This document shows positions 6,708 to 35,229 of a stretch of 35,229 bases of DNA, piece by piece. The stretch's first letter is position 1; every line of letters starts with the position of its first letter. Both the position numbers and the translations under genes were made by a program. The notes beneath the pieces were generated by a model that searched no databases, had not been told where the DNA came from, and saw only the letters and a list, made by a program, of their open reading frames with translations. The stretch spans positions 1-35,229 of the forward strand of contig JAUTCS010000117.1 in the NCBI GenBank assembly GCA_030673825.1, in the 5' to 3' direction. The DNA is from Verrucomicrobiota bacterium JB024 (lineage in GTDB: Bacteria > Verrucomicrobiota > Verrucomicrobiia > Opitutales > Cerasicoccaceae).

Positions 6708-9404
6708 ATGGCAAATTTAGTAAAGACAAGATGCGAGGGATCGCATTCCCCGATGGGGATCGATGTGCGCCGACCCCGGCTTTCATGGCGGATCGAGGCG
6801 GCTGAACCGTCGTTTGTGCAGGTGGGTTACCGTGTGTGGGTGGCGACGAGTCCGGAGCTTCTCGATCAGGATGAGGGCGACTTGTGGGATTCGGGACAGG
6901 TGGAGTCCTCGGCCTCGGCGTGTGTCTGCTATGCGGGCGAAGTGCTGTCTTCGCGCCAGCGCTGCTACTGGAAGGTGCGCCTGTGGAGCGGGCAGGGGGA
7001 GCTTGAGAGTACCATCGGTAGTTGGGAGATGGCTCTGCTGGAGCCACAGGACTGGGAAGCGCAATGGATCGGTTACCCGCCAGGGGCCGATGGGGGGGCT
7101 CTCTATGTGCGCCGGGCCTTTACGTTGGATGGGACGGTCGCATCCGCACGGGTGTACGTCAGTGGACTGGGATATTATGAGCTGCGCCTGAACGGGCAGA
7201 AGGTGGGCGACCACGTTCTGGACCCGGCCTGGACCGCCTATGACAAGCGGGTGCTGTACTGCGTTTACGATGTGAGCGAGCAACTGTTATCGGGGCGTAA
7301 TGTAATCGGAGCTATTGTCGGAAACGGTTGGTACGGCATGCCCAAGCTGCGCCTGCAACTGGAAATCACTTACCGTGACGGGCGCACTATCCGTGTGTGC
7401 AGCCAGGGGGGCCACACGGCCGCCCCCGATACGTGGCAAGTCGCCCGTGGTCCGTTGCGGCACAACAGCGTCTATGGCGGTGAGGAATACGACGCCACGC
7501 TGGAAGGCCCCGGCTGGGATCAGCCGGAGAATGACAAGAGAGGGCCGGGCTTGGACTTTGTCGTGGCGATCCCGGTTGATGCTCCGGCGGGGATCATGAG
7601 TGCGCAAATGCTGGAGCCGATAAAAGTGGCGGAACGGTTCCCTGCGATAGCGTGGACGGAGGTGGAGCCGGGCGTCTATGTTTTCGATGCCGGTAAAAAT
7701 CTGGCCGGATGGGCCGCTCTGTGCGTTCAGGGGCCGCGCGGCCAGCGGGTGACCCTGCGGTATGCCGAGGGGATCGGCCCGAACGGCAAGCTCGCTCGCG
7801 GGACGCTTCGCCGGGCGGCGGCGAGGGATACCTATATTCTGCGTGGGCAGGGTGTCGAGCGCTGGGAGCCACGGTTCACCTATCATGGTTTTCGCTATGT
7901 AGAGGTTGAGGGATTGCCGGAGGCTCCGGGGATCGACACGTTGACGATCTGCGCGGTACGCTCGTCCCTGAGGCGCCGTGGCTTTTTTGCCTGTTCGGAT
8001 GATCTGCTGAACCGGATCGAGCAGATGGTGATCCGTACCGAGGAGAGCAACCTCCACGGCGTACCTACGGACTGCCCACAGCGGGATGAACGACTCGGCT
8101 GGCTCAACGACATGACGGTGCGGACTGAAGAGGTGGTCTACCACTTCGGGATGGAGCGGTTTTTAGAAAAGTGGTGCGCGGACGTTGCCGATACGCAGTG
8201 TGTGAAGACGGGAAGCATCACCGATACGGCTCCTTTTGCCTGGGGCAAGCGGCCGGCCGATCCGGTATCGGCCAGCTTCCTGCTCGTGCCGTGGCTATCC
8301 TATCTGCACTATGGGTGCGACCGATTGATCCGGCGCCATTTCTCTCAGATGGAGCGTTGGGTAGAGTTTATGGCCGCTCAATGCGAGGACGGTGTGTTGG
8401 CCTACAGCAGTTGGGGGGACTGGGCTCCGCCGGAGGCTTTCGCGCTGAAGGACAGTATCGGTGCGGGGGCCGTCTCCAGGTATACGCCGGGAGCGCTGGT
8501 CTCAACCGCCTACCTCTGCTATCAGGTCCGGTTGCTGGCACGTATGGCCGAGGTGATAGGACGGGAGGAGGATGCCCGCCGTTGGCATCGTTTTGCGCGG
8601 GAGATCGGGGAGGACTTTCACGCGAATTTCTGGAACGAAGCGATAGGCGGCTATGGCTCTGGAAACCAGGCCTGCAACGCCCTTGCACTGTACATGGAAC
8701 TGGTCCCCGGCGAGCTGCGGGCGAGAGTCGCACGTAGTCTCGCGGACAATGTTGCCGAGCACGGCTACCATTTAACCACGGGTAACCTCTGCACGAAGTA
8801 CCTGCTGGAAGTGCTCTCTGACACCGGGTATGTGGATGCGGCTTTCCGCATCGCGACGCAATCGAGCTACCCGAGTTGGGGTTATATGCTCGCCCATGGC
8901 GCGACGACCCTCTGGGAGCGCTGGGAAAACAAGACGGACGGCGAGATGAACTCTCACAACCATCCGATGCTGGGATCGATCTCGGCCTGGTTCTTTCAAT
9001 ACCTGGCCGGCATCCGTCCGGAGGTGACGGCTCCGGGGTTTAAGCGTTTTACAGTCACCCCTTATGTGCCTGCGGGCTTGGACAACGTCCAGGCCAGCTA
9101 CGAATGCCCCTATGGGCTCATCAAGGTCGAATGGGTGCGTGAAGGTGATGTCTTTACGCTGGAGTTGGAGGTGCCGGCCAATACTCACGCCCATGTCCGG
9201 GTGCCCGTTATCTGTGCCGGAGCCATCTGTACGGCAATCCGTATGGATGGTACGCAGCAGCGACTGCCATCGACCGAGAGGCATTCGGATGGCGTGATTT
9301 TTCATGTGGACGGAGGGTGCTATCGCTTCCGCATCGGACCGGATGCTTCCGTCTGCGACACTGCAACCGGTGTGTCCGGTTCGTTGCTGTCGAAAGTGGA
9401 CTGA
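6708..9404 (+). CDS. GH78 alpha-L-rhamnosidase
   Basis: An 898-residue enzyme expected to release terminal alpha-L-rhamnose by inversion. N-terminal residues match the Bac_rhamnosid_N pattern (NPxGID-like SPMGIDVRRPRLSW, then the CYWKVRLW and WEAQWIGYP motifs). A beta-sandwich with 'YVSGLGYYELRLNGQKVGD' follows. The (alpha/alpha)6 barrel starts near residue 425, with the acidic loop TDCPQRDERLGWLNDM at about 465-480, and continues to GATTLWERWENKTDGEMNSHNH near 735-760; both loops carry the conserved acidic residues of the family. A C-terminal beta domain ends the protein. There is no signal peptide, implying action in the cytoplasm on imported oligosaccharides. An in-frame TTG at 6702 could serve instead of ATG 6708; neither has a strong ribosome-binding site. 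The next gene begins 3 bases after the stop. Confidence 0.93.
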   Translation: MANLVKTRCEGSHSPMGIDVRRPRLSWRIEAAEPSFVQVGYRVWVATSPELLDQDEGDLWDSGQVESSASACVCYAGEVLSSRQRCYWKVRLWSGQGELESTIGSWEMALLEPQDWEAQWIGYPPGADGGALYVRRAFTLDGTVASARVYVSGLGYYELRLNGQKVGDHVLDPAWTAYDKRVLYCVYDVSEQLLSGRNVIGAIVGNGWYGMPKLRLQLEITYRDGRTIRVCSQGGHTAAPDTWQVARGPLRHNSVYGGEEYDATLEGPGWDQPENDKRGPGLDFVVAIPVDAPAGIMSAQMLEPIKVAERFPAIAWTEVEPGVYVFDAGKNLAGWAALCVQGPRGQRVTLRYAEGIGPNGKLARGTLRRAAARDTYILRGQGVERWEPRFTYHGFRYVEVEGLPEAPGIDTLTICAVRSSLRRRGFFACSDDLLNRIEQMVIRTEESNLHGVPTDCPQRDERLGWLNDMTVRTEEVVYHFGMERFLEKWCADVADTQCVKTGSITDTAPFAWGKRPADPVSASFLLVPWLSYLHYGCDRLIRRHFSQMERWVEFMAAQCEDGVLAYSSWGDWAPPEAFALKDSIGAGAVSRYTPGALVSTAYLCYQVRLLARMAEVIGREEDARRWHRFAREIGEDFHANFWNEAIGGYGSGNQACNALALYMELVPGELRARVARSLADNVAEHGYHLTTGNLCTKYLLEVLSDTGYVDAAFRIATQSSYPSWGYMLAHGATTLWERWENKTDGEMNSHNHPMLGSISAWFFQYLAGIRPEVTAPGFKRFTVTPYVPAGLDNVQASYECPYGLIKVEWVREGDVFTLELEVPANTHAHVRVPVICAGAICTAIRMDGTQQRLPSTERHSDGVIFHVDGGCYRFRIGPDASVCDTATGVSGSLLSKVD

Positions 9405-13239: not shown

Positions 13240-14346
13240 ATGAAAACCACCACCACGCTGCTTGCCGCTTGCTCTCTCCTATCGGCGGCTTCTCTCACCT
13301 CCTGGGCCGACACCGCCTACACGGACCCCGTCATGGCCTCCAGCACGACGATTGCTGGGAATGGCGGCTCAGGGATTAGTTTCTCTGTTATTGGATTTCC
13401 GGCACTTAGCTCGATTGAAGCCACAGGGGTTATTGATAGCATTGAGGGCGTAGATGGTGATGGATACACCACTCTTGTCGTAACTGATGTGCCCTCCACA
13501 TGGTCAACGAACAATTTTGATGCTCAGGGCGGAGTTGTTGAGTTCAACTTCCGCAACGTTCCTCTGTATTACGTCGAGATCACCTCGGGTGATAAAGAAG
13601 GGCAGCTTTTTGAAGTTTTAGCGACAGGCTCTGGCGCTAGTGCATCGATGACTGTTGGTGCTGATCTGAGTGGACTTGATTCGGCATTCTCCGGTGCGAC
13701 ATTTGCAATTCGTCGGAAACACACCATCGGAAGTGTTTTTGGCGAAAACAATGAAGCAGGATTTCGCCCTGGCCAAAATGATACGGAAGCCGACTTGATT
13801 TATAATCTCTATGGCGGTGTTTTTGAAACTATTTACTACCAAGATGATCAGATCGGCATCTTTGGTGATGGCTGGCGAGTTACTGGCGATTTCTTTACTG
13901 ATGCATCCGATGTATGTATTGACCCGGATTTTGGGGTTTTTGTCGCTAAACGAGATAACAATGCGATTAACGTAGTTTCCGTTGGTGATGTGAAGCTCGG
14001 CACGGCACGTACTGCTATTGTGCAAGGATTTAATCCGGTCATATCGAAATTCCCTGTCTCGATGACCTTAGGGACTTGTGGACTTTATGATTCTGAAAAT
14101 CCTGTGCTGACCGGTGGGCAGAATGATACAGAGGCTGATTTAGTTTACGTTTTGGTTAATGGTCAGTTTATTGCTTACTACTACCAAGTGGATCAAATCG
14201 GTATTTTTGGTAGTGGCTGGCGGAAGCTGGGAGACTTTTTTGCTGACCAAAGTAGCGTCGAGATTCCCTCTGGTGCACCTGTGATCGTTTTCCGTCGTTC
14301 TGCCACCCCTGTTGAGTGGGTGAAGATGCAACCATATGTTTTGTGA
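13240..14346 (+). CDS. TIGR02597-type secreted protein
   Basis: A 368-residue exported protein with a signal peptide (MKTTTTLLAACSLLSAASLTSWA, cleavage about residue 23). It matches the layout I know for the TIGR02597 family of Verrucomicrobia: an opening 'TDPV' region, a YYVEITSGDKEGQLFEV strand, 'FAIRRKHTIGSVFGENN', then two related modules. Module one is GQNDTEADLIYNLYGG...IGIFGDGWR (about residues 178-210); module two is GQNDTEADLVYVLVNG...IGIFGSGWRKLGDFF (about 296-330), an evident internal duplication. Each ends with an 'I/V-xx-G-x-x-V/I-F-x-x-R/K' strand. Function is unknown. The gene is noticeably AT-richer than the secretion operon beyond it. The PEP-CTERM gene starts 34 bases downstream and a shared terminator follows, so they form a two-gene unit. 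Confidence 0.85.
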   Translation: MKTTTTLLAACSLLSAASLTSWADTAYTDPVMASSTTIAGNGGSGISFSVIGFPALSSIEATGVIDSIEGVDGDGYTTLVVTDVPSTWSTNNFDAQGGVVEFNFRNVPLYYVEITSGDKEGQLFEVLATGSGASASMTVGADLSGLDSAFSGATFAIRRKHTIGSVFGENNEAGFRPGQNDTEADLIYNLYGGVFETIYYQDDQIGIFGDGWRVTGDFFTDASDVCIDPDFGVFVAKRDNNAINVVSVGDVKLGTARTAIVQGFNPVISKFPVSMTLGTCGLYDSENPVLTGGQNDTEADLVYVLVNGQFIAYYYQVDQIGIFGSGWRKLGDFFADQSSVEIPSGAPVIVFRRSATPVEWVKMQPYVL

Positions 14347-14380
14347 AGATACTCTTTGTCTCTGCTAACTTTAACGACTT

Positions 14381-15061
14381 ATGCGTGTGAAAAATATAGC
14401 TAAACTTGCTTCTTTTTTAGTAGTACTAATCTCTTTTAGCGCCATCAGTGCTAAAGGTCAGGATTTCACCAATATTCAATGGGGCGATGTTGCTGGTAGT
14501 GATTTTTTCCTGCTGGGTGACTCATCTGGAAGCACCTTTAACCCGACAACTAACCAGGCAATTGTCGTGCTTGGGTACTTTAATAGTGCGTTTAATGTGT
14601 CAGAGAATGCGACAGATCTGCAGGCACTCTTCGATAACTTTACACTGCTAGCCCAAGCTGAAATTGGAACCGGTTACAGCGGATTTGTTTCAACATCCAC
14701 ATCGATCAGCACAGATGGGAATCCGGCTGTCGGCCAAACCCCTTACTATTGGGTGTTGGAAGGTGTTACTACTTATGATTTGAGCAGTGTTCTTGGCGTT
14801 TCCGAGTATGCTATTCTTAGTGATAGCAATTGGGGTGTTATTCCCACGGGAGCTGCTCCCCCAGCCGGACAAACATACGATATTCGCGTTGTTAACCCGG
14901 ACACGGTGATTTACGGCTCCGTTGAGAATGGTGCTGGTTTCGGTTCCGGCAATCTTTACAAAACCGCAGAGGCTGTTCCCGAGCCTGCTTTCTATACGGC
15001 GGGGCTGGGTGTGATTGCCCTGCTGGTGGTGCAGTTGCATCGTCGCCGGAAGGTTGCCTAA
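14381..15061 (+). CDS. PEP-CTERM sorting domain protein
   Basis: A 226-residue exported protein. The N-terminus is a signal peptide (MRVKNIAKLASFLVVLISF, cleavage near SAKGQ). The middle part (starting DFTNIQWGDVAGSDFFLLGD) is a small Asn/Ser/Thr-rich domain with an aromatic 'YYWVLEGVTTYDLS' strand seen in short Verrucomicrobia paralogues. The C-terminus is a PEP-CTERM tail: VPEPAFYTAGLGVIALLVV then LHRRRKVA. It lies directly after the TIGR02597-type gene, shares its lower GC content, and is followed by a strong terminator, implying joint expression. Likely surface-sorted; partner or ligand unknown. Confidence 0.85.
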   Translation: MRVKNIAKLASFLVVLISFSAISAKGQDFTNIQWGDVAGSDFFLLGDSSGSTFNPTTNQAIVVLGYFNSAFNVSENATDLQALFDNFTLLAQAEIGTGYSGFVSTSTSISTDGNPAVGQTPYYWVLEGVTTYDLSSVLGVSEYAILSDSNWGVIPTGAAPPAGQTYDIRVVNPDTVIYGSVENGAGFGSGNLYKTAEAVPEPAFYTAGLGVIALLVVQLHRRRKVA

Positions 15062-32487: not shown

Positions 32488-32564
<77 letters not shown>

Positions 32565-32570
32565 ATTTCT

Positions 32571-32600: not shown

Positions 32601-32691
32601 TATGCCGCTTTCCGGGCGATTAGCCCGAACACCCCCCTTTGCCCGAAAAGGGCGAAACATTCTGAAATAAGGGCGAATTTCGTGGGCCAAA

Positions 32692-32975
32692 GCCCCACTT
32701 TTGGCCCCACTAAATCCGCCTACTCTGTTTTGTAAGTCCTTGATTTACATCAAACCCAGCTGGTTGAGGCTTCCAAGTGGGTCCAAACATGGGCCACCTC
32801 AACGCCCAAGTCCAACTTCTCGGATCCAACCCTCCAGCTCTGCCGAAACGGCTCAAGTGAACCCTCCGTGAACCCTTTTTCCATCGGGACTCAAGCTGTG
32901 CGCCGCTCTTTGCGTCCGGTGATCCTTGCCTCCTCACCATGGCTTTTCCCTCCCGAGTGGGGCCAAAAGTGGGGC
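32692..32975. repeat. 19-bp perfect inverted repeat pair
   Basis: GCCCCACTTTTGGCCCCAC at 32692-32710 is the exact reverse complement of 32957-32975, with 246 bases between. Each arm itself contains the word CCCCAC twice around a TTTT. A related, imperfect word occurs between them. Nothing coding lies inside. Confidence 0.75.
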
Positions 32976-33054: not shown

Positions 33055-35229
33055 TCATCTGTAAATTTCTTCTAGTCGATGAGTAAGCTGCCTCGCCTCT
33101 GACCATCCGGCTTCAACGAACAGATCGAGTATTTGGAGGAGAGCTGTAAGGCATTTCGATTCTTTGGTGCCCTCAACCTTAAAAATGTCTCTATGATCTG
33201 CCAGTGCTTGTTGAAGCAATTCTACAACTTTACCGAGAGCAAGCGAGTCATACTGATATCCAGCTTTTGATCCTGAGATGATGGCATTGGTTGCTAGGAT
33301 AAATACTTCCTGTGGGGAGCATGGAAGCAGATGGTGGAGCGTTTGTACGACATTGTGCACGACACTTGGATGAGGCTCTTCAGCCAGCGCTCGAAGCACA
33401 CTGGCGGATTCAATCCAGAAACGTTGTTTCTGCGGCTCGGTGAGGTGGTTTTTGTCATCGTTCTGCTTTTCTGAAAAAGCACCACTGGTGAAATACAGTT
33501 CCCGTGCGATATCATCAATGATCTTAAGGGTGTGACGAATAGCCTCTTGGGTATACATTGCGCCTTCACTCTCATTGTCACCCTTCTGGGAGAATTTCTG
33601 CGCGTGCTTACGATGATATTCAAGCTTGGACTGAGCAGAAGCCAGTAGCTCTTTTAGGAATGTCCATGTCCGTTCGCGAGTAGCCTCTTTGGCGGCAACC
33701 ACATTCACGGCGTCTCCTGCGGTAAGCCACCCTCCTTCGCGACAGACAAAAAACTGCCGATCAAGAGACTTACTCACACGTTTGCAGTCGCATTCTTGCA
33801 CCAAGTTCCGAATGTACCATTCGCAAGCAGGATCACCGGTTCTGAAATAGTGGAAAAGGAATGCATTTGTTAGGCGGGGATGGATAATGTTTTCATCTGA
33901 TGCATTTTCGATGGATTGTTTCGCGATGTGTGACAGTCGTGGACTGACTTCTGCGGGGAACGTATGCCACAAATGATCAAGCGATCGCACTATCATCGTG
34001 AGCACTGAAAACCGGATTTCGTTATAAATAAAATGGTCAACGAGCTCCCACATTAGTTTTGGGGCCGCCTTGCTCAAACAGTGTAGTCTCTCCGCAAAAT
34101 AGAAACGGAGTGCTTCTGATTTATCCTCTCTTATCGTGTGTAAGGCCTCAGAAATTTCTGAATCAACACCACCAATTCGATAGGCATAGTACAAAAGGCC
34201 ACACGCTGCATCAAGCCGTGGAGCGGGCCACGTGTAACTAGGCCATTTTTCTTCATTCTGATCGTCATCCTCTCTCGCGATTGGACGCGGGTCAGTTAAT
34301 GCTTTCAGGAAAATGCGCCGCAAAGTACTCCATCGCCCATCATCGGGGCTCCACTCCGCATTACCGGCAATTGCTCTGCACGCACCAACGAGGTATCCCC
34401 ATAATTCATCAGCCCTTTCCCCATGACTAGAAAGATACTGAGCAACAGCTCGCTCAGATTGTTCTACTGTCACCCAAGCCTGAGCTAATATATCAGAGTC
34501 CAGATTGCCCCCGCGCAGATCGCGAACGGGCTTTATCGCTTCGATAAGAAGTATCAGTTCATCGTCAACAGGGTCTTTGATTTGGGCATTTTTATGGTTT
34601 TGCTGTCGATCGACTGACGTCGAAGAAGTATCAACGATCTCATTGTGTCGTTTCCGCCTTTGCTCTATGTGCGAAAACCACAAACTCTTCGCCTCTTCCA
34701 AAACGAGGTCACCTTCATCTAGCGCAAGTAACAGTTTCTTCTGTGCGTATACGATGTAACTCGGTGTTGGCGAACGAGGCTCACCGTGAAATAGATGAGC
34801 AGTTTGGGGCAGATTGAGAAGGAGTTTCTCCATCCACTTTCGTTTTTGAGCATCACCTACTTTATGGAGCGCGGCAAAAAGCAATCTCCCCGCTTCACAA
34901 TAATCGGCATGTGTGAGAAAAACTGATTCTAAAAGTAGAGGCTCAAGCTCTTTCCCAAGGGTTGAAGGGTACTTCGCTCCAGCCCTCATGAACACTTGCC
35001 ACATTTCTGAACTTCGATTTCGAGCACAAAGAACATCAAGTGAAATCTTTAAGTGTTCACCGTCACTGATGTTTGCCCATTGGTCTAGGGTTTTCTCGAA
35101 ATGCGATATGATTTCATTTTCATGGTGCTCGAAATCTGTTTGGGAGCGACCCCCCCGCCCCCGGCGCGGCGGGCGAACCCACTCGAGCGAGCTTAAAAAA
35201 AAGTTAAGCGGTGTGTTATTTAAGTATGG
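33055..35229 (-). CDS. Large helical-repeat protein of unknown function, C-terminal part (start beyond window)
   Basis: The frame is open from the stop at 33055 to the right edge, 724 codons, with no stop; the internal ATG at 35004 need not be the start and coding-like sequence (FEHHENEIISHFEKTLDQW) continues upstream of it. The product is almost wholly alpha-helical, with Leu/Ala/Trp-rich helix pairs resembling HEAT or TPR-like repeats (for example LRFYFAERLHCLSKAAPKLM and VLTMIVRSLDHLWHTFP), and no membrane segment. No nucleotide-binding or nuclease motif is in this part. Base use is clearly AT-richer than the neighbouring operons, and it lies just past a tRNA, both signs of transfer. Helical C-terminal halves of this size occur in large STAND-type NTPases, including anti-phage ones, but the defining domain, if any, would be outside the window. 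I do not recognise the family. Confidence 0.75.
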   Translation of the reverse strand, partial: PYLNNTPLNFFLSSLEWVRPPRRGRGGRSQTDFEHHENEIISHFEKTLDQWANISDGEHLKISLDVLCARNRSSEMWQVFMRAGAKYPSTLGKELEPLLLESVFLTHADYCEAGRLLFAALHKVGDAQKRKWMEKLLLNLPQTAHLFHGEPRSPTPSYIVYAQKKLLLALDEGDLVLEEAKSLWFSHIEQRRKRHNEIVDTSSTSVDRQQNHKNAQIKDPVDDELILLIEAIKPVRDLRGGNLDSDILAQAWVTVEQSERAVAQYLSSHGERADELWGYLVGACRAIAGNAEWSPDDGRWSTLRRIFLKALTDPRPIAREDDDQNEEKWPSYTWPAPRLDAACGLLYYAYRIGGVDSEISEALHTIREDKSEALRFYFAERLHCLSKAAPKLMWELVDHFIYNEIRFSVLTMIVRSLDHLWHTFPAEVSPRLSHIAKQSIENASDENIIHPRLTNAFLFHYFRTGDPACEWYIRNLVQECDCKRVSKSLDRQFFVCREGGWLTAGDAVNVVAAKEATRERTWTFLKELLASAQSKLEYHRKHAQKFSQKGDNESEGAMYTQEAIRHTLKIIDDIARELYFTSGAFSEKQNDDKNHLTEPQKQRFWIESASVLRALAEEPHPSVVHNVVQTLHHLLPCSPQEVFILATNAIISGSKAGYQYDSLALGKVVELLQQALADHRDIFKVEGTKESKCLTALLQILDLFVEAGWSEARQLTHRLEEIYR

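Follow-up and report, generated by a model that had tools for sequence, protein, structure and literature searches.

Results

The stretch of DNA analysed here (the window) is an entire contig of exactly 35229 bases (C117) from the genome of Verrucomicrobiota bacterium JB024, with nothing further to the right on that contig. At its right end (33055-35229) the minus strand carries a reading frame of 724 codons, which has its stop codon at 33055-33057 and is still open at the contig end. As the contig stops at 35229 and the gene lies on the minus strand, the missing end is the N-terminus, to be sought on another contig. The frame has a GC content of 0.477, against 0.609 for positions 1-32564 of the window, and it is convergent with a tRNA-Met(CAT) gene on the plus strand (32488-32564; ARAGORN; Rfam tRNA, 62.8 bits), with 490 bases from the tRNA to the stop codon. 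A preliminary description had reported at least 724 codons, AT-richer than their surroundings and running off the right edge 490 bases from the tRNA, which is confirmed here. An A11:T24 pair, the mark of an initiator, can be read from the sequence of the tRNA; the gene is thus that of the initiator tRNA, an integration target left intact by the element described below.

Judged by its sequence, the frame is a real coding frame, since residues 31-724 are matched by a curated profile and can be aligned with homologues. The profile, PDLC04700, is, like PDLC04702, a PADLOC model for the candidate family PDC-M54A, and the match (E 2e-86) covers positions 973-1657 of its 1657, reaching the C-terminus of the family exactly. 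In a blastp comparison with three chosen sequences only, one homologue aligns over 699 columns with 27% identity (E 1.4e-59). The C-terminal 694 residues (33055-35139, minus strand) are thus those of an M54A-family, Avs-like receptor. The in-frame contig end (35140-35229, minus strand) is unmatched and contains a very GC-rich patch; the PADLOC match begins at residue 31 and the blastp alignments to the three homologues at residues 32-39, and the first 30-38 residues may be either a true linker or an artefact of the assembly end.

The window protein is a very divergent new member of an already catalogued family and not a new kind. Of the preliminary reading, the sensor half, the island and the N-terminal P-loop stand, whereas the suggestion of an undescribed system does not, the family being present in PADLOC as candidate PDC-M54A. 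A housekeeping protein had been considered as well; for the window half, matches in Pfam and NCBIfam were at chance level and below the cut-offs (E 0.13 and 0.16), and there was no full-length housekeeping match. The same half gave zero matches in PHROGs, and a single-sequence search of the PDB returned only E 0.62. A literature search of main texts found no paper naming PDC-M54A or PDC-M54, nor was a published phage-defence test of any PDC-M54A member found.

At E <= 0.001, PDLC04700 matches the JB024 genome in two places only, the window and the left end of a contig of 7,555 bases (C64). The C64 piece (E 1.4e-54) comprises 437 residues from an ATG start, runs off the contig and covers profile positions 3-427. 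The two pieces do not overlap on the profile, and both are oriented as one gene requires. In 47 measured homologues out of 48 aligned, 516-546 residues separate the corresponding pieces (median 521), with 543 and 545 in the two nearest homologues, which puts the gap between the contigs at about 1.5-1.6 kb. By these sequence comparisons the two pieces would form one gene, encoding a protein of roughly 1,650 residues; I infer this union, as the bases between the halves are not assembled.

The C64 half is predicted, from sequence and models, to combine a nuclease domain of the Cap4/DUF4297 type with a STAND NTPase. It retains D70, D71 and K89, a Walker A motif (GEPGCGKS, from 334), a Walker B motif (DALDA, from 402), R408 and R437; a P-loop or effector domain at the N-terminus is what the preliminary description had suggested looking for. 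D71, K89, G337, G339, K340, D402, L404, D405, R408 and R437 are common to JB024 and all 77 of 77 homologues. The Q two places before K89, part of a QxK motif, is present in 76 of these 77, and in JB024 this position is S87. The residues of the D ... (E/Q)xK motif are presumably the catalytic ones in nucleases of the Cap4/DUF4297-type PD-(D/E)XK group, and the replacement of the conserved Q by S makes the nuclease activity of the JB024 protein uncertain. An nSTAND3 match in this half (E 2e-5) lies slightly below the cut-off. The PADLOC Avs models match it weakly and in the NTPase region only (Avs4, E 1.6e-4; Avs2, E 2e-4), and none matches the window half at E <= 1.

For the N-terminal half, the structure of the homologue L068 was predicted in place of the JB024 sequence (pLDDT 93.5); L068 shares 29-47% identity with each of the 49 further rows in its alignment. 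With Foldseek, Avs4 came first (E 7e-11, whole-model TM-score 0.32), the domains fitting singly, and the next matches, from E 3e-7, were AAA proteins of the ORC, p97 and NSF types. A structural aligner matched residues 265-602 with NLRC4, in the NACHT domain of this NLR (Z 18.4, 295 aligned, rmsd 3.8), and residues of about 2-264 with LmuA (Z 14.2), Cap4 (6vm6, Z 13.7) and Hachiman (Z 12.9). Residues 4-588 aligned with Avs4 at Z 16.2 over 400 positions with an rmsd of 15.8, a value which again means that the domains fit one by one.

The model of the window half (pLDDT 85.8) is nearly all helical, and on this model the half is a HEAT-like solenoid, the presumed sensor. That agrees with the preliminary description, which had suggested a sensor half of the long helical kind known from STAND/AVAST-type defence proteins. 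The model resembles HEAT/ARM solenoids in general, with the best score for a PP2A scaffold (Z 15.1); against residues 856-1587 of Avs4 it gives Z 13.8 (569 aligned, rmsd 14.3), no better than the eukaryotic HEAT/ARM matches. As helical repeats readily give such scores, the comparison speaks for a solenoid and for the domain order, and not for a shared function. The closest solved relative by sequence is a 1523-residue 'AAA family ATPase' with the same domain order (PDB 9n00/9n01/9yix). With sequence profiles, 9n00 is matched by the N-terminal half at E 3.2e-13 and by the C-terminal half at E 1.3e-4, with PP2A-type HEAT proteins ranking higher for the latter; no paper naming 9n00 was found in a literature search.

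The preliminary description had placed the gene on a likely island beside the tRNA, with the tRNA 3' end as a plausible integration target, and proposed a search for a repeat of this end. Such a repeat exists: the left attachment repeat, 52 bp at 32518-32569 (plus strand), begins in the anticodon arm, ends 5 bases beyond the tRNA and is identical to positions 2879-2930 of C35, a further contig of the JB024 assembly; ARAGORN found no tRNA at the second copy (first 20 kb of C35). Between the tRNA and the gene lie two 20-nt inverted-repeat arms (32692-32711, plus strand, and 32956-32975, minus strand) that are 100% complementary. Window positions 32688-32713 recur exactly, reversed, at 3000-3025 of C35, so the inverted repeat is also found beside the second attachment copy; these repeats look like candidate arm sites of an integrase. 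A tyrosine integrase (Phage_integrase) is encoded on C35 about 1.7 kb from the second attachment copy, and further on follow TrbI, a TraG-type P-loop ATPase, a TrwC relaxase and a TrwB/TraD coupling protein. The attachment copy together with the integrase, relaxase and conjugation genes on C35 makes the receptor a terminal gene of a conjugative element.

C64 and C35 overlap at their right ends, which are identical over exactly 141 bases when one of them is reversed. An end overlap of this kind usually indicates neighbours in an assembly graph; part of it has a second, 90% copy inside C35. From one attachment repeat to the other, the chain C117-gap-C64-C35 amounts to 2,665 + about 1,500 + 7,414 + 56,179, or about 67.8 kb, the join of C117 and C64 being a presumed one. 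The receptor is accordingly predicted from sequence to be the first gene, on the tRNA side, of an integrative conjugative element of ~68 kb.

Conserved synteny of the gene with rpsB, raised in the preliminary description as a contrary possibility, is absent from the three congeners compared (G001, G002 and G003), in which the gene was not found. Different genes follow the tRNA in G001 and G003, and G002 has a similar attachment region followed by a transposase (gene names by reading). From these sequences the tRNA-fMet site seems to be used repeatedly. Beyond the right attachment copy in JB024 lie CvfB- and U32-like genes (by reading), which are not beside the tRNA in G001 or G002; this flank was not found in G003. 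In G002 (contig C5, locus L114, 332-3785) the tRNA-fMet is followed first by the related attachment-side sequence and then by the transposase, which is IS66-like (name by reading).

At E 0.001, PDLC04700 gave matches in 5 of 14 control genomes, and at 1e-20 in 0 of 14, for which reason the surveys were run at 1e-20. Among 384 genomes of the class and 387 of the phylum, each set drawn evenly from a larger group, this threshold left a single positive per set, JB024 each time. JB024 was likewise the only positive among 10 genomes of its taxonomic family with a profile of the N-terminal half, and among 36 relatives with the sequence P0001. Homologues of the window half occur in 13 plasmid records, none spanning 80% of it in one place, and a phage collection yielded no homologue of it. 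Scans of viral contigs gave none with P0001 singly, two relatives each with the pattern sets A6 (added as loci L014 and L015) and A8 (L097 and L098), and at least two matches, in the P-loop region, with A4. In a collection of species genomes, a scan for two motifs of the family picked out 350 candidate stretches, 101 of which encode relatives; the best 80 of these 101, representing 79 loci, were retained. The spread of M54A is patchy.

Trees and motif counts are based on 77 of 90 M54A loci; left out were truncated or frame-broken loci (L033, L047, L051, L073, L084, L086, L089, L095 and L097), near-duplicates (L015, L075 and L083) and, for no compelling reason, L087. The structure alignments use a manual choice from these loci: A9 contains 48, in addition to the window half, and A10 contains 50. 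The JB024 sensor half is 17-27% identical to the 48 aligned relatives. In the sensor-half tree (667 columns, a few of them misplaced for the JB024 row) it forms a long branch of 1.95 changes per column outside the bulk of the sampled family, and the smallest well-supported set that includes it has six rows. In the N-half tree JB024 belongs to no supported set and its branch measures 2.79 changes per column. Measured along the tree path, both trees have L068 closest to JB024, and the long branches make the exact place of JB024 unsure.

From the names M54A and M54B, PDC-M54 would be a system of two genes. M54B lies immediately downstream of M54A in 38 of 90 loci; another 45 offer room for it but do not have it, and in 7 there is no room. 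An HMM of 36 M54B homologues found none in the open frames of C117, C64 and C35, and the whole JB024 genome, searched with one PADLOC M54B profile (PDLC04706), yielded no M54B either; the two-gene set is therefore incomplete in JB024. As half of the sampled relatives (45 of 90) lack M54B despite having room, a single gene may suffice. The sole genome match of PDLC04706 at E <= 1 (E 4e-4) is to an HsdR-like protein of type I restriction, whose N-terminus weakly resembles the N-terminal ~110 residues of the profile (L008:11230-12675 and, in JB024 contig C21, 4279-4602, locus L013). This part of the HsdR-like protein is presumably DUF4145-like, and the match may be read as a hint at the nature of M54B. 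In seven loci (L006, L007, L074, L075, L076, L083 and L096) a Shedu (SduA) gene stands directly upstream of M54A; M54B is missing from six of these, while L076 stops too early to judge, and Shedu appears as a recurrent other partner.

Discussion

I consider it likely (probability about 0.7) that the window gene encodes the sensor half of an Avs-like STAND receptor, PDC-M54A, at the end of a conjugative element of ~68 kb, acting as a phage-triggered nuclease. The most likely function is that of a sensor which would activate a DNA nuclease upon phage infection. PMC12931631 describes Avs1-4 as sensors of phage proteins that cleave DNA, and Avs5 as acting through a Sir2 NADase; ATP-dependent trimerisation is described for Avs2 in PMC12724215. 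Since the anatomy is the same in kind as that of Avs, I infer the mechanism from it, all steps beyond the anatomy included. The HEAT-like solenoid would bind a protein from an invading phage or a competing element, upon which the NTPase would assemble; the nuclease domains of Cap4 type, clustered in this way, would cut DNA, and the infection would be stopped with the cell sacrificed, as for Avs1-4. The receptor would work without the partner M54B.

The likeness to known systems is of several degrees. With PDC-M54A, the JB024 pieces share both extremities of the profile and the signature residues of the family, and differ from its other members by the 17-27% identity of the sensor, the long branch, the missing M54B and the S for Q. 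Avs4 (AVAST type 4; PDB 8dgf, bound to a phage portal) has the same succession of effector, STAND NTPase and long helical sensor at a similar length, and the L068 model of the N-terminal half and the model of the window half align to it in order. The three-part architecture of Avs/AVAST in one protein is matched by JB024 provided that both contig pieces are one gene, but there is no strong sequence match to known Avs types (E about 2e-4, against 1.4e-54 to PDC-M54A). In its model, the first 264 residues of L068 have the fold of the Cap4/DUF4297/LmuA/HamA nucleases (Z 12.9-14.2) with D and K conserved. These nucleases have SAVED, HerA, Lamassu and Hachiman as partners, whereas here the domain is fused to a STAND receptor.

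It is unlikely that the same receptor serves conflicts between elements, guarding the island against rival plasmids and conjugative elements or retaining it, without phages as its target. The terminal position of the gene on a conjugative element would suit this, as would the homologues on large plasmids (the 13 records), their absence from the phage collection and their small number in viral contigs. However, defence genes are a common cargo of conjugative elements, and the location of the gene therefore says little about its target. Moreover, the closest characterised architecture, that of Avs1-4, senses phage proteins, according to PMC12931631. Less probable still is a decaying or inactive relic, with the gene broken or its nuclease dead. 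The change from Q to S in the nuclease motif, the lack of a detected partner gene, the very long branch in both trees and the unassembled middle of the gene all point that way, yet both halves (694 and 437 residues) are open with zero stops, where a relic would be expected to have some, and Walker A, Walker B, D71, K89 and the conserved C-terminal end have all been kept.

A further possibility is that the halves come from two separate M54A-like genes, each cut at a contig end; in its favour are the long branches of both halves and the fact that C117 and C64 share no end of >30 bases. I regard this as very improbable: the pieces do not overlap, are the sole two found in the genome, have the right orientation and are alike in GC content (0.477 for the window gene, 0.457 for the C64 piece); L068 is nearest to both by tree path; and the chain C117-C64-C35 closes an island between two attachment repeats.

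On the reading as one phage-sensing Avs-like receptor, two points could set the JB024 member apart, namely the S within its nuclease motif and the missing M54B. A rather doubtful extension is that the deep M54A branch without M54B forms an Avs type of its own, with a single gene, a modified Cap4-type site, a place near a tRNA on conjugative elements and a trigger new for Avs. A catalogue candidate, PDC-M54A, gains a concrete anatomy of Cap4-like nuclease, STAND NTPase and HEAT-like sensor and with it a testable mechanism, and a divergent member of it is placed on a conjugative element with further defence-type genes.

Other genes of the island and the window

Neighbouring defence genes, which the preliminary description had suggested looking for, are present: besides the receptor, both C64 and C35 carry further defence-type genes. 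At 54059-58843 of C35 (L117:14059-18843) lie a CapP-like M78 peptidase (E 6.6e-61), an E2-like protein (E 2.5e-9) and a PycTM-type effector (E 7.8e-14), beside a 483-residue protein for which no match was found in Pfam (E <= 0.01) or PADLOC (E <= 0.001). These genes may make up a divergent set of CBASS- or Pycsar-like type whose core protein is unrecognised. A run of three genes near the receptor, at 2775-7533 of C64 (locus L005), is a possible second defence set; it encodes a protein of 255 residues without a match, an Upf1-like SF1 helicase with MkoA/MkoC/DpdJ-like matches, and a NERD/UvrD-like helicase.

On the same contig, at 1588-2612, a gene for a Phd-type antitoxin is followed by a P-loop kinase-like frame interrupted by a stop, which by reading only looks zeta-toxin-like. 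Near the integrase end of the island, C35 encodes a Fic protein close to SoFic of PADLOC (7184-8320, locus L112; E 1.1e-120), and a long metabolic block (21357-48855) of oxidoreductase-like, transporter-like and sugar-related genes, by reading, lies between its conjugation genes. Within the window, a second AT-rich stretch (13240-15061, GC 0.46-0.49) is located beside tRNA-Pro; it is not obviously mobile and encodes two secreted-type proteins, one of them with an apparent PEP-CTERM anchor at its end (by reading).
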